Below are positions 19,208 to 27,145 of a DNA stretch of 64,000 bases, piece by piece; position 1 is the stretch's first letter, and each line of letters begins with the position of its first letter. Where the stretch lies: contig LT599018.1 in the NCBI GenBank assembly GCA_900079685.1, positions 1,769,528 to 1,833,527 on the forward strand, written 5' to 3'. The position numbers and the translations under genes are program-made. The DNA is from an uncultured delta proteobacterium. GTDB lineage: Bacteria; Desulfobacterota; Desulfovibrionia; Desulfovibrionales; Desulfovibrionaceae. Below the pieces are notes generated by a model. It was not told the DNA's origin. It made no database searches and saw only the letters and a program-made list of their open reading frames with translations.

Positions 19208-20560
19208 TTAATACATGCCCAGATCGCACATGCTGTGCGCCACCCTGCGGAAAGACGCGATGTTCGCGCCCATGACGAGGTTGTGGGGCTGGCCGAATTC
19301 AACGGCGGTCGCATGGGACGTTTCGAAAATGTGCTTCATGACGCCCTTCAGTTCGGCATCCACCTTTTCAAAGGTCCAGGGCTTCATGGAGGCGTTCTGG
19401 GACATTTCCATCTGGGACACGGAAACCCCGCCCGCGTTGGCCGCCTTGCCCGGACCGTAGGCGATTTTCGCCTCCAGGAAAAGATCCACGGCCGCCTGGG
19501 TGGAGGGCATGTTCGCGCCTTCGGCCACGCACACGCAGCCGTTCTTCAACAGTTCCCTGGCGTCGTCCGCGTTAAGCTCGTTTTGCGTGGCGCTCGGGAA
19601 CGCCGCTTTGCAGGGGACGGACCAGACCATGTTGCGGCCTTCGGGGTAGTCCCTGGCCGGCGTGTAGGTGGCGTCCGGGCAGAGCTCCTTGTAGCGGGTC
19701 AGCCGGCCGCGCTCGACTTCCTTGACCTGCTTGAGCACTGCCAGATCAATGCCCGCCGGGTGGTGGATCATGCCGTCGGAGTCAGAAACGGTCACAGCCT
19801 TGGCGCCGATCTGCTGCAGCTTTTCAACGGTATAGATGGCCACGTTCCCGGAGCCGGAAACCGTGCAGGTGGCGCCCTCGAGGAAGTCGCCGCGCGCGCC
19901 GAGCATGTTCTGCGCGAAATACACCGCGCCGTAGCCGGTGGCTTGCTTGCGGCCCAGCGAACCGCCCCATTCAATGCCCTTGCCGGTCAGGACGCCGTCA
20001 TGCCGCCAGGTCATGCGCTTGTACTGGCCGAACATGTAGCCTATTTCGCGGGCCGCGACGCCGATATCCCCGGCGGGCACGTCTATGGTGGGGCCGAGAT
20101 AATGGTGCATTTCCGTCATGAACGCCTGGCAAAAGCGCATGACTTCGTTGTCGGACTTGCCCTTGGGGTCGAAATCCGCCCCGCCCTTGGCGCCGCCGAT
20201 GGCAAGCCCGGTCAGGGCGTTTTTAAAAATTTGTTCGAACCCCAAAAATTTCAGGATGCTGAGGTTGACCGAGGGGTGGAAACGGAAACCGCCCTTGTAC
20301 GGCCCCACGGCATTGTTGAACTGAACCCGGTAGCCCCGGTTGATCTGGTTCCGCCCCTTGTCGTCAAGCCACGCCACGCGGAAGATGACGATCCTGTCCG
20401 GGATGATGATACGCTCGAGCATTTTGCGATCGGCGTAACTGGGGTCGGAATCCAGCAACGGTTTGAGGGAGGAGACGACCTCCTCGACAGCCTGGTGAAA
20501 CTCCGCCTCGGCCGGATCCTGCCTGTGCACCATGTCCATAATACACTGCGTGTAATCCAT
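19208..20560 (-). CDS. gdhA: Glutamate dehydrogenase, copy 1
   Basis: 450 residues, the usual length for the hexameric bacterial enzyme. Signatures: GGAKGG with the substrate lysine region, DVPAGDIGVAAREIG, and the dinucleotide-binding VSGSGNVAIYTVEKL. Reaction: reversible reductive amination of 2-oxoglutarate with ammonium and NAD(P)H, giving glutamate; similarity in layout to E. coli GdhA suggests NADP(H). It is about 90% identical by eye to the gene at 20992-22344 (47 differences in 450, only 5 in the last 150 or so residues). Both have a hairpin-rich leader about 200 nt upstream of the start. Confidence 0.95.
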   Translation of the reverse strand: MDYTQCIMDMVHRQDPAEAEFHQAVEEVVSSLKPLLDSDPSYADRKMLERIIIPDRIVIFRVAWLDDKGRNQINRGYRVQFNNAVGPYKGGFRFHPSVNLSILKFLGFEQIFKNALTGLAIGGAKGGADFDPKGKSDNEVMRFCQAFMTEMHHYLGPTIDVPAGDIGVAAREIGYMFGQYKRMTWRHDGVLTGKGIEWGGSLGRKQATGYGAVYFAQNMLGARGDFLEGATCTVSGSGNVAIYTVEKLQQIGAKAVTVSDSDGMIHHPAGIDLAVLKQVKEVERGRLTRYKELCPDATYTPARDYPEGRNMVWSVPCKAAFPSATQNELNADDARELLKNGCVCVAEGANMPSTQAAVDLFLEAKIAYGPGKAANAGGVSVSQMEMSQNASMKPWTFEKVDAELKGVMKHIFETSHATAVEFGQPHNLVMGANIASFRRVAHSMCDLGMY

Positions 20561-20991: not shown

Positions 20992-22344
20992 TTAATACAT
21001 GCCCAGATCGCGCATGCTGTGCGCCACCCTGCGGAACGACGCGATGTTCGCGCCCATGACCAGGTTGTGGGGCTGGCCGAATTCAACGGCGGTCGCGTGG
21101 GCCGTTTCGAAAATGTGCTTCATGACGCCGTGCAGTTCGGCATCCACTTTTTCGAAGGTCCAGGGCTTCATGGAGGCGTTCTGGGCCATTTCCATCTGGG
21201 ACACGGCAACCCCGCCCGCGTTGGCCGCCTTGCCCGGGCCGTAGGCGATCTTCGCCTCCAGGAAAAGATCCACGGCCGCCTGGGTGGAGGGCATGTTCGC
21301 GCCTTCGGCCACGCAGACGCAGCCGTTCTTCAACAGTTCCCTGGCGTCGTCCGCGTTAAGCTCGTTCTGCGTGGCGCTCGGGAACGCGGCCTTGCAGGGG
21401 ACGGACCAGACCATGTTGCGGCCTTTGGGGTAGTCGCTCACCGGAATATAGGTGGCGTCCGGGCAAAGCTCCTTGTAGCGGGTAAGGCGGCCGCGCTCGA
21501 CTTCCTTGACCTGCTTGAGCACCGCCAGATCGATGCCCGCCGGGTGGTGGATCATGCCGTTGGAATCGGAAACGGTCACGGCTTTGGCGCCGACCTGCTG
21601 CAACTTTTCAACGGTGTAGATGGCCACGTTCCCGGAGCCGGAAACCGCGCAGGTGGCTCCCTCAAGGGAGTCGCCCCGCACGCCGAGCATGTTCCGGGCG
21701 AAGTACACCGCGCCGTAGCCGGTGGCTTCCTTGCGGGCCAGCGAGCCGCCCCACTCGTATCCCTTGCCGGTAAACGCGCCCTCGTGGCGCGAGGTGATGC
21801 GCTTATACTGGCCGTACATGAACCCTATTTCACGGGCCGCGACGCCGATATCCCCGGCGGGCACGTCGACCGTGGGGCCGATGTAGCGGTACATTTCCGT
21901 CATGAAGGCCTGGCAGAAGCGCATGACTTCATGGTCGGACTTGCCCTTGGGGTCGAAATCCGCCCCGCCCTTGGCGCCGCCGATGGCAAGCCCGGTCAGG
22001 GCGTTTTTGAACGTTTGCTCAAACCCCAAAAATTTCAAAATGCTGAGATTGACCGAGGGATGGAAACGGAACCCGCCCTTGTACGGACCCACGGCGTTGT
22101 TGAACTGGATCCGGTATCCCCGGTTGATCTGGTGCTCGCCCTTGTCGTCAAGCCACGCCACGCGGAAAATGATGATCCGGTCCGGGTTGATGATGCGCTC
22201 GAGCATTTTATGGTCGGCGTAGCGGGAGTCGGAGTTGAGCAGCGGTTTGAGCGAAGTGACGACTTCCTCTACAGCCTGGTGGAATTCCGGCTGGGCCGGG
22301 TCTTGTCTGTGCACCATGTCCATAAGGCTCTGCGCGTAAACCAT
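20992..22344 (-). CDS. gdhA: Glutamate dehydrogenase, copy 2
   Basis: 450 residues with the same motifs as copy 1 (GGAKGG, PAGDIGVAAREIG, VSGSGNVAIYTVEKL). AGGAGG precedes the ATG. Differences from copy 1 cluster in the first two thirds (for example residues 2-7 and the 110-160 region), while the C-terminal third is almost identical. That suggests an older tandem duplication with later gene conversion of the 3' part. All catalytic regions are intact in both, so both should be active. Two copies with different leaders would allow different expression, for instance under ammonium limitation or excess; that is inference. Confidence 0.95.
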   Translation of the reverse strand: MVYAQSLMDMVHRQDPAQPEFHQAVEEVVTSLKPLLNSDSRYADHKMLERIINPDRIIIFRVAWLDDKGEHQINRGYRIQFNNAVGPYKGGFRFHPSVNLSILKFLGFEQTFKNALTGLAIGGAKGGADFDPKGKSDHEVMRFCQAFMTEMYRYIGPTVDVPAGDIGVAAREIGFMYGQYKRITSRHEGAFTGKGYEWGGSLARKEATGYGAVYFARNMLGVRGDSLEGATCAVSGSGNVAIYTVEKLQQVGAKAVTVSDSNGMIHHPAGIDLAVLKQVKEVERGRLTRYKELCPDATYIPVSDYPKGRNMVWSVPCKAAFPSATQNELNADDARELLKNGCVCVAEGANMPSTQAAVDLFLEAKIAYGPGKAANAGGVAVSQMEMAQNASMKPWTFEKVDAELHGVMKHIFETAHATAVEFGQPHNLVMGANIASFRRVAHSMRDLGMY

Positions 22345-24744: not shown

Positions 24745-24879
24745 TTTATAACACACGAACCCCCGGAAGGGGATTCCGGGGGTTCGTGTGGGGGATGAAC
24801 CGTTGGGGGATGGTTCATAGTAACGTGTAGGCCATGTTAGGGGGAATGACCATGCGAGGGGGAATCGCATCACGTTGCT
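24745..24879 (-). ncRNA. Sigma-54-dependent C-loop small RNA, copy 1
   Basis: Predicted start about 24877-24879, 12 nt after the -12 element, and end after the hairpin at 24752-24790 (17-bp stem). Predicted fold, 5' to 3': AGCAACGTG pairing with CACGTTACT to close a junction; within it ATGCGA/TCGCAT with loop TTCCCCC and GGTCAT/ATGGCC with loop TCCCCCTAAC; then ATGAACC/GGTTCAT with loop ATCCCCCAAC; a single-stranded CCCCC; and the final hairpin with loop TCCCC. Every loop shows a C-tract that could pair with G-rich ribosome-binding sites. It is nearly identical to copy 2 (ungapped, offset 317 bp). No conserved open frame. Confidence 0.75.
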
Positions 24880-24887
24880 TTAATGAT

Positions 24888-24903
24888 AGCAAGGAGCGTG
24901 CCA
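24888..24903 (-). promoter_or_regulatory. Sigma-54 promoter of small RNA copy 1
   Basis: TGGCACGCTCCTTGCT on the minus strand matches the -24/-12 consensus TGGCACG-N4-TTGCW at every fixed base. Confidence 0.85.
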
Positions 24904-25011
24904 CATTGAGAAAAGAAAACAATCTTCAAGTAATTTATTAAAATAATTATTTTTTTTAAAAATGCCTCCAGACAAAAAGGAGAGCCGCCGTGCCGTCCGT
25001 GCGTTTTTAGC

Positions 25012-25044
25012 TGTTCGAATTCGAACATTGCGCGAATCCGAACA
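25012..25044 (-). promoter_or_regulatory. Paired enhancer-like palindromes for small RNA copy 1
   Basis: TGTTCGAATTCGAACA (perfect palindrome, 25012-25027) and TGCGCGAATCCGAACA (25029-25044) lie at 17-bp pitch, centred about 151 bp upstream of the predicted start. The spacing suits an NtrC-type activator. A conserved GCGTTTTT follows on the promoter side. Confidence 0.7.
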
Positions 25045-25061
25045 GGTAAAAAAATGGCGGG

Positions 25062-25196
25062 ACCATAACACACGAACCCCCGGAAGGGGATTCCGGGGGT
25101 TCGTGTGGGGGATGAACCGTTGGGGGATGGTTCATAGTAACGTGCAGGTCATGTTAGGGGGAATGACCATGCGAGGGGGAATCGCATCACGTTGCT
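25062..25196 (-). ncRNA. Sigma-54-dependent C-loop small RNA, copy 2
   Basis: Same layout as copy 1, with predicted start 25194-25196 and terminal hairpin at 25069-25107. The few differences from copy 1 do not disturb the stems. The second hairpin is even better paired here (GGTCAT with ATGACC). An ATG frame that is open in copy 1 meets a TGA after 12 codons here, so the product is an RNA and not a peptide. Confidence 0.75.
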
Positions 25197-25204
25197 TTAA
25201 TAAG

Positions 25205-25220
25205 AGCAAAGAGCGTGCCA
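25205..25220 (-). promoter_or_regulatory. Sigma-54 promoter of small RNA copy 2
   Basis: TGGCACGCTCTTTGCT on the minus strand; full match to the -24/-12 consensus. Confidence 0.85.
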
Positions 25221-25329
25221 ATATTGGAGCGCATGGACATTTTTTTTAACTTACTTTATTCATTAATAAAAATTCAAAAAACAGATTGTGCTTTTTTCCA
25301 TCGCCGGCTCAAAGTGTGCGTTTTTTACA

Positions 25330-25362
25330 TGTTCGATTTCGCACAACGTTCATATTCGCACA
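25330..25362 (-). promoter_or_regulatory. Paired enhancer-like palindromes for small RNA copy 2
   Basis: TGTTCGATTTCGCACA (25330-25345) and CGTTCATATTCGCACA (25347-25362), again at 17-bp pitch, centred about 152 bp upstream of the predicted start of copy 2. Confidence 0.7.
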
Positions 25363-25373
25363 ACTAACGGCCA

Positions 25374-25504
25374 TGAAACAACGACCCTCCGGAAGGGGAA
25401 TTCCGGAGGGTCGTGGGGAATGAACTTCTTGGGGGGAGAGTTCATAGCAACGTGTAGACCAATTTTGGGGGGAGGCCACGCGAGGGGGATCGCGTCACGT
25501 TGCT
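25374..25504 (-). ncRNA. Sigma-54-dependent C-loop small RNA, copy 3
   Basis: The diverged copy, closest to the regulator gene. The fold is kept by compensatory changes: the closing stem is perfect (AGCAACGTG with CACGTTGCT); the first hairpin is ACGCGA/TCGCGT where copies 1 and 2 have ATGCGA/TCGCAT; the terminal stem is changed on both arms (ACGACCCTCCGGAA with complement, 25381-25414). The loops keep their C-tracts (TCCCCC, TCCCCCCAAAATT, TCTCCCCCCAAGAA, TTCCCC). This pattern of constant loops and covarying stems supports a functional RNA. Confidence 0.75.
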
Positions 25505-25512
25505 ATGGGAAA

Positions 25513-25528
25513 AGCAAACCCTGTGCCA
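25513..25528 (-). promoter_or_regulatory. Sigma-54 promoter of small RNA copy 3
   Basis: TGGCACAGGGTTTGCT on the minus strand; matches TGGCAC and TTGCT with correct 12-bp GG-to-GC spacing. Confidence 0.82.
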
Positions 25529-25672: not shown

Positions 25673-27145
25673 TTATTCCTTGCTGTTTATCCTGCGGAGC
25701 AACGCATACCGGGACACGCCGAGAAAAGAAGCCGCCTTGCTCTTGTTGCCGTCAAACCGGCTGAGCGCTTGGCGGACAATGGTGTCCGTCAGGGAGTCCA
25801 GCGAAAACGGCGCGTCCGGCAATTGGAGCCAGCCGTTGCTGCCAAAGGAAATCCAGTCAACGTCCGCGGCGGGAGCAACACCGGCGGCTGGCCGGAACTC
25901 CTCCTCCGCGGAGACAAAGTGCAGATGCTCGGGCAGGAGGTATTCGCCGTCGTGCATGAGAACGGCCCGTTCGAGGGTGTTTTCCATCTCGCGCACGTTG
26001 CCCGGCCAGGAATAGGTACGTAAAAGATGCATCGCTTCCGCGCTGATGCCGCGGAACCGTTTCTTTTTGCGTTCCGTTTCGCGGGCAAGAACCATCTCCG
26101 CCAGCGTCACAAGATCGTCGCCGCGCTCGCGCAACGGGATGATGCGCAGATGCCCCACCCGCAAGCGGTGGTACAGGTCGCGGCGGAAAAGCCCTTTTTC
26201 CACCATGCCGGAAAGATCGCGGTTGGCCGCGCAGATGACGCGCGCCGAAAAGGTGCGTTTTTTCACGCCGCCCAGGCGGTAGAAGGTGCGCTCCTCAAGA
26301 ACCCGGAGCAGCTTCGGCTGCAGGGTCAGGGGCAGTTCCGCCACTTCGTCCAGGAACACCGTGCCGGACCCCGCGGCCTCGAGTTTGCCCGGCGCGCCCC
26401 CGGCCCGGCTGCCGGTGAAGGCTCCGGGTTCATGCCCGAACAGCTCACTCTCGAACAGCTCGTGCGGGATGGCCGCGCAGTTGATGGCGATGAACGGCTC
26501 GGGGGAGACGGTCTCCCCATGGTGCACCAGTTTGGCGATCACCTCCTTGCCCGTGCCGGTCTCCCCCTCGATAAGAACGGGGACCGACGGGTTGGCGTGG
26601 ATGATGAGCGCCTCTTCCACCAGACGCCGCATGGCCGGGGAGTCCGCCACGATTTCCCCGATGCCGGTAACCTGCCGCAGCCGAACCTTGACGTCCTCCA
26701 GGCTTTTCACGACGTCCCGGGTGGCTTCGGCGACCTTTTCGTCCATCCTGGTTTTCAGTTCCAGGTTTTCGAGACGCAGGGCCTGGTGCTCGGCACAGCG
26801 GTCCACCACAACGGCCAGCTCGCGGGCGTTGATGGGCTTGTTCAGGTAATCGTAGGCCCCGCGCCGCAGCGCGTCGATGGCGGTCTGCATGTCGCCGTGG
26901 CCGGTAATGAGCACGATGTCGCTGTCTTTGGCCAGCTCGTTTTCCTTGAGCCGGGTCAGCATCGCGAGCCCGTCCATGCCGGGCATGCGGATATCCGTGA
27001 TGATGAGCGGGTAGAAGGCGTGCGTCGCGACCTCGAACGCCTCGAGGGGGTCGGAGAAGGCGCGCACGTCGTGGCCCAGATCTCCGAGCACCAAACTCAG
27101 GCTCTGCAGGCTCTGATCGTTGTCATCCACAACCATGATGCGCAT
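25673..27145 (-). CDS. NtrC-family sigma-54-dependent response regulator
   Basis: 490 residues from the ATG at 27145 (GGGAG upstream). Order: receiver domain (1-125; phospho-acceptor Asp51 in IITDIRMPG); a coiled linker; an AAA+ domain (about 165-400) with Walker A GETGTGKE, the sigma-54-contacting loop GAFTGS and Walker B GTVFLDE; and a Fis-type HTH at the C-terminus (NKSKAASFLGVSRYALLRRI). Established role: when phosphorylated it binds enhancer sites and drives open-complex formation by sigma-54 polymerase. No kinase gene is adjacent. The three sigma-54 small-RNA units directly downstream, each with paired palindromes, are the obvious candidate targets; this is inference from position and promoter class. 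Confidence 0.93.
   Translation of the reverse strand: MRIMVVDDNDQSLQSLSLVLGDLGHDVRAFSDPLEAFEVATHAFYPLIITDIRMPGMDGLAMLTRLKENELAKDSDIVLITGHGDMQTAIDALRRGAYDYLNKPINARELAVVVDRCAEHQALRLENLELKTRMDEKVAEATRDVVKSLEDVKVRLRQVTGIGEIVADSPAMRRLVEEALIIHANPSVPVLIEGETGTGKEVIAKLVHHGETVSPEPFIAINCAAIPHELFESELFGHEPGAFTGSRAGGAPGKLEAAGSGTVFLDEVAELPLTLQPKLLRVLEERTFYRLGGVKKRTFSARVICAANRDLSGMVEKGLFRRDLYHRLRVGHLRIIPLRERGDDLVTLAEMVLARETERKKKRFRGISAEAMHLLRTYSWPGNVREMENTLERAVLMHDGEYLLPEHLHFVSAEEEFRPAAGVAPAADVDWISFGSNGWLQLPDAPFSLDSLTDTIVRQALSRFDGNKSKAASFLGVSRYALLRRINSKE

Follow-up and report, generated by a model that had tools for sequence, protein, structure and literature searches.

The locus examined here lies within a 64-kb stretch of DNA (the whole stretch analysed, hereafter the window) and raises the question of how small RNAs that display runs of C in their loops, in three tandem copies, are controlled, and what these runs might act upon.

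Three tandem RNAs and their C-tracts

The RNAs and their terminal hairpins were delimited as follows:

24748-24877, minus strand: C-loop sRNA copy 1 (5' end approximate, placed from the sigma-54 promoter; 3' end at a 17-bp hairpin)
24752-24790, minus strand: terminal 17-bp hairpin of copy 1, with a TCCCC loop
25065-25194, minus strand: C-loop sRNA copy 2, 97% identical to copy 1
25069-25107, minus strand: terminal hairpin of copy 2, equivalent to that of copy 1
25376-25507, minus strand: C-loop sRNA copy 3, diverged (about 80% identity), with compensatory stem changes
25381-25414, minus strand: terminal hairpin of copy 3, shorter

Each RNA is about 130 nt long, and the three are arranged in tandem, with a response regulator gene on one side and a lytic transglycosylase gene on the other. 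A whole-genome search revealed no further copies in the window's own genome. Elsewhere in the window, two very similar tandem genes of the glutamate dehydrogenase type are present on the minus strand (19208-20560 and 20992-22344).

A previous reading of the letters alone (the sequence-only reading) had proposed five C-tracts per RNA, exposed in loops or single strands and retained while the stems change on both sides. All three copies do carry five such tracts: TTCCCCC, TTCCCCCTAAC, ATCCCCCAAC, a CCCCC between two stems and the TCCCC of the 17-bp hairpin in copies 1 and 2, and TCCCCC, TCCCCCC, TCCCCCC, TTCCCC and TTCCCC in copy 3. Structure prediction assigns them an unpaired probability of 0.8-1.0, versus 0.24-0.25 for the remaining positions, and 767 nt contain 8 hairpins with a loop of C5 or more, where 500 dinucleotide shuffles give a mean of 0.28 and a maximum of 2. 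Between copies 1/2 and copy 3, double changes were verified in P2 (UA to CG), P3 (UA to CG, via UG), P4 (CG to UA) and the terminal stem (AU to CG and CG to UA); in the latter the arms of copy 3 were paired by hand, as the MAFFT alignment was wrong there. The tracts are thus kept across the copies, as had been claimed; what needs correction is that their length is not constant (4-6 in the window copies, up to 10 in relatives) and that the RNAs lie on the minus strand.

A plus-strand, CsrB-like interpretation, in which G-tracts with GGA would occupy the loops, was also considered. It was rejected because the promoters, terminators and array hairpins are all on the minus strand and the reverse strand beside the arrays has no C-loops.

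Promoters, palindromes and the adjacent regulator

While the RNAs and their loops had been recognized before, the sequence-only reading overlooked the sigma-54 promoters, the enhancer palindromes and the response regulator next to them, as well as the absence of Hfq and ProQ (see below). The control elements are:

24889-24903, minus strand: sigma-54 promoter of copy 1, TGGCACGCTCCTTGC
25206-25220, minus strand: sigma-54 promoter of copy 2, TGGCACGCTCTTTGC
25514-25528, minus strand: sigma-54 promoter of copy 3, TGGCACAGGGTTTGC
25014-25025, minus strand: candidate enhancer (UAS) of copy 1, TTCGAATTCGAA, at conserved spacing to the sigma-54 site
25332-25343, minus strand: candidate UAS of copy 2, TGCGAAATCGAA
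25642-25653, minus strand: candidate UAS of copy 3, TGCGGAATCGCA; its TGCG-N4-CGCA motif recurs in other genera
25673-27145, minus strand: NtrC-type sigma-54 response regulator, the presumed activator (Pfam: receiver, AAA+ with GAFTGS loop, Fis-type HTH)

Each RNA copy is immediately preceded by a perfect sigma-54 element, TGGCAC-N6-TGC, and the pattern TGGCAC-N4-6-TTGC has exactly three matches on the two strands of the window together, one for each RNA. A palindrome of the TKCG-N4-CGMA type lies about 110 bp upstream of every promoter, with a second, half-matching site directly upstream of the candidate UAS of copy 1. The features of a sigma-54-dependent sRNA, i.e. a -24/-12 promoter at each RNA together with an enhancer-binding protein, are therefore both found at the window locus. 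The gene preceding the regulator encodes a UvrD-type helicase in the window and a PAS/histidine kinase in other genera, and the latter arrangement identifies a two-component system. The link between regulator and promoters is strongly supported, and the neighbouring regulator is presumed to activate the three RNAs.

Among 199 genomes of the same bacterial family, 43 contain an orthologue of the regulator (E <= 1e-125), and these represent 10 of 44 genera; when named organisms were scanned with the regulator alignment, the matches listed comprised distant activators alone. In genera g1, g10, g14, g15, g21 and g50, and in genome G189 of g19, the orthologue is followed on the sense strand by a palindrome, a sigma-54 site (120-300 nt past the regulator stop codon) and runs of C5-C10 in hairpin loops, which are lacking on the reverse strand. 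The strict palindrome expression overlooks some members, e.g. G001 and G074. Genera g17, g3 and g34 and most g19 genomes have no array after the regulator. In g3 (L161, L146), which has the most diverged regulator (52%), a sigma-54-like site downstream of the regulator precedes multihaem cytochrome-like genes, with no C-loop RNA. Another observation concerns g50, where an FMN riboswitch lies directly 3' of a C-loop array (L158:4832-4991, G108). Genera g10 and g15 have an ORF of 114-132 aa, for which Pfam gave no confident match, between the sigma-54 site and the hairpins with C-loops (L153 and L154; +186 to +585 after the regulator in G010, beginning MHVLVIH in G015).

Altogether, at least eight genera of the family have RNAs with C-runs in hairpin loops. 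Their stem sequences are wholly different between genera, and yet the C-run loops are retained. In g21, g50, g14 and g15 the terminator loop is itself a C-run and U-tracts follow; a good U-tract is absent after the terminal hairpin in the window genus and present in other genera. Within g21, double compensatory changes were found in 15 of 64 and in 7 of 52 pairs, the C-runs remaining unpaired. Maintenance of the C-loops despite stem change, noticed originally in the three window copies, therefore extends across genera on unrelated or covarying stems and is strongly supported.

A whole-genome search was performed with a pattern consisting of the palindrome, the spacing and the sigma-54 element. 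C-tracts were not required, so this test could fail. It recovered C-loop RNAs in G017, G118, G173 and G181. G017 has two tandem copies with shorter C-tracts, 55 kb away from the regulator, and in G118 the RNA, with three C-loop hairpins, the terminator among them, is on a contig other than that of the regulator. As the G173 regulator is at a contig end and that of G181 was not identified, linkage is certainly broken in G017 and G118 only. Other matches outside the known loci had no C-loops and were mostly within coding sequence. The strict pattern overlooks sites with TTCG halves (as in G000), and therefore a missing match is no proof of absence. As a separate observation, the matches L341, L339 and L337 (G158, G295, G077) precede enzyme-like ORFs, not C-loop RNAs; by eye, these ORFs are CoA-transferase-like, glycyl-radical-like and nitrogenase-cofactor-like.

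That a search free of C-tracts recovers C-loop RNAs indicates that palindrome, promoter and RNA belong together, and it favours action in trans, which is likely also because the downstream neighbours are not conserved. The C-loop arrays might instead act only in cis, as leaders or attenuators of downstream genes, given that copy 1 is followed on its own strand, some 200 nt further on, by the lytic transglycosylase gene and that the ORF in g10 and g15 is inside the same transcript. However, the genes downstream of arrays differ among genera, U-tract terminators end the arrays in several of them, copies 2 and 3 precede just another copy, and the RNA is unlinked to the regulator in G017 and G118. 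We regard a purely cis-acting role as very improbable.

Comparison with known small RNAs

Hfq was found in none of 13 genomes and ProQ in none of 8, the window's genome being included in both sets and the control genomes being positive. Mycobacteria likewise lack Hfq and ProQ, and their B11 (6C) RNA represses through C-rich loops (PMC10470900; PMC12395582). Repression of eccB4, a target with six Gs in its 5' UTR, depends on these loops (PMC10470900), and the B11 terminator contains a functional C-rich loop (PMC12395582). The 6C/B11 family (RF01066; Actinobacteria) thus resembles the window RNAs in having C-runs in hairpin loops, one of them in the terminator loop, in its hosts without Hfq and ProQ and in the proposed pairing with G-tracts. 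It differs in belonging to another phylum and in having two or three such loops, compared with three to five here, whereas the window RNAs have sigma-54 promoters, a linked response regulator and tandem copies. The 6C covariance model matched copy 3 only, with 28.2 bits, below its gathering score of 47.

Alpha-r14 (RF02344), represented by NfeR1 of Sinorhizobium meliloti, also combines several hairpins with a common C-rich unpaired motif on differing stems, and three redundant loop motifs of NfeR1 silence mRNAs (PMC10746234). However, its loops carry the motif CCUCCUCCC, which is absent from the window RNAs, whose loops are pure C-runs. The alpha-r14 model gave 32.1, 32.0 and 25.9 bits in the window and 34.3 in L144, all below the gathering score of 58.8.

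In terms of control, a comparison can be made with the Qrr RNAs and LuxO of Vibrionaceae, which share with the window locus an NtrC-type response regulator, sigma-54 promoters and several sibling sRNAs (PMC10162802, PMC8043402). Qrr RNAs are, however, Hfq-dependent and use a single conserved pairing region in place of C-loops, and the window RNAs had no Rfam match to Qrr. One could suppose, by analogy, that another conserved unpaired stretch does the pairing and that the C-loops mainly stabilize or protect the RNA. The sigma-54 control and tandem copies would fit this, as would CAACCTATC, which stands before the terminator and is nearly invariant in g21 in spite of complete change in the middle hairpin. 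Since CAACCTATC is absent outside g21 and the C-loops are the sole feature common to all genera, we find this explanation improbable. On our reading, the RNA works like 6C and alpha-r14 and is controlled like Qrr, and by score it is neither Rfam 6C nor Rfam alpha-r14.

A further parallel is found in Desulfovibrio vulgaris Hildenborough, where DVU0679 targets Dv_sRNA2, an expressed RNA of stated unknown function downstream of the regulator's own gene (PMC3333781). DVU0679 is the sole listed D. vulgaris activator with a GAYTGS loop (PMC4641369). Both loci have an sRNA directly downstream of an NtrC-type regulator, with control at the window locus being presumed, and GAYTGS agrees with the GA[FY]TGS of the window-type regulators. 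In the main texts of PMC3333781 and PMC4641369 we came across no account of C-loops, tandem copies, structure conservation or a mechanism for Dv_sRNA2. Judging from motif and gene order, the window locus is probably the counterpart of the Dv_sRNA2/DVU0679 system.

Possible targets of the C-loops

The sequence-only reading had suggested that the C-rich loops could pair with Shine-Dalgarno sequences. This idea is in line with alpha-r14 and 6C/B11, the nearest characterized analogues, but the target searches did not separate array-bearing from other genomes. In most genomes G-tracts before the ATG exceeded a reversed control, yet they were equally common where the regulator has no array beside it, and some array-bearing genomes showed no enrichment; no orthologous target common to several genera was found among the sampled G8 sites. 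In the window, none of 47 long ORFs has G5 or more before a candidate ATG start. G015 contains 21 G7- or G8-ATG sites, versus 1 in the reversed control. In this genome, G8 tracts were seen a few bases before the ATG of chemotaxis/sensor-like genes (L271, L273, L274, L277, L281), including one for a CheW-like protein. A feedback loop acting on the ribosome-binding site of the regulator itself was discarded as a candidate, a G-run being absent there in all genomes except one. Moreover, a loop made purely of C7-C10 is not an obvious design for pairing with GGAGG.

Because these searches give pairing no direct support, the main rival is a protein sponge, in which the repeated C-loops would sequester a protein that binds C-runs (e.g. 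Rho, a cold-shock or a KH-domain protein), as CsrB does with CsrA via GGA loops. Poly(C) is a strong Rho ligand. A short loop motif repeated many times, on stems that change freely and in several tandem RNAs, is the architecture of a sponge, homopolymeric C7-C10 without conserved flanks suits recognition by a protein, and a conserved mRNA target was not found among the sampled G8 sites. On the other hand, the sequence-matched precedents, 6C/B11 and alpha-r14, act through base-pairing, and the candidate protein is so far hypothetical. We therefore consider a sponge unlikely. Its more specific form, a family-wide two-component/sigma-54 regulon whose RNAs capture a particular RNA-binding protein, possibly Rho, through long C-runs in a CsrB-like manner, appears more doubtful still; if true, it would newly place a C-run-binding protein under small-RNA regulation.

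Taking the promoters, palindromes and unlinked copies together with the precedents of B11, with its C-rich loops and G-rich target 5' UTR, and of NfeR1, with its redundant loop motifs, we favour, with some reservation, two-component-induced RNAs that act in trans, their C-loops pairing with G-rich translation starts. We infer that the response regulator (25673-27145) would occupy the TGCG/TTCG palindromes, which lie some 110 bp in front of each promoter, and activate sigma-54 RNA polymerase at the three promoters. The hairpins of the resulting transcripts would keep the C-tracts unpaired in loops, and these redundant loops may then base-pair with G-rich segments within or close to the ribosome-binding sites of the targets and block translation, with no need for Hfq or ProQ.

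In bacteria that have neither Hfq nor ProQ, such a system would couple a two-component system and sigma-54, as the signalling input, to an RNA whose C-loops were retained while the rest of its sequence changed. Should the identity with Dv_sRNA2 hold, an expressed RNA of D. vulgaris would gain a structure, a family and a testable mechanism. Together with mycobacteria and rhizobia, this family suggests that C-rich loops are a recurrent solution among small RNAs, possibly one that is independent of chaperones.
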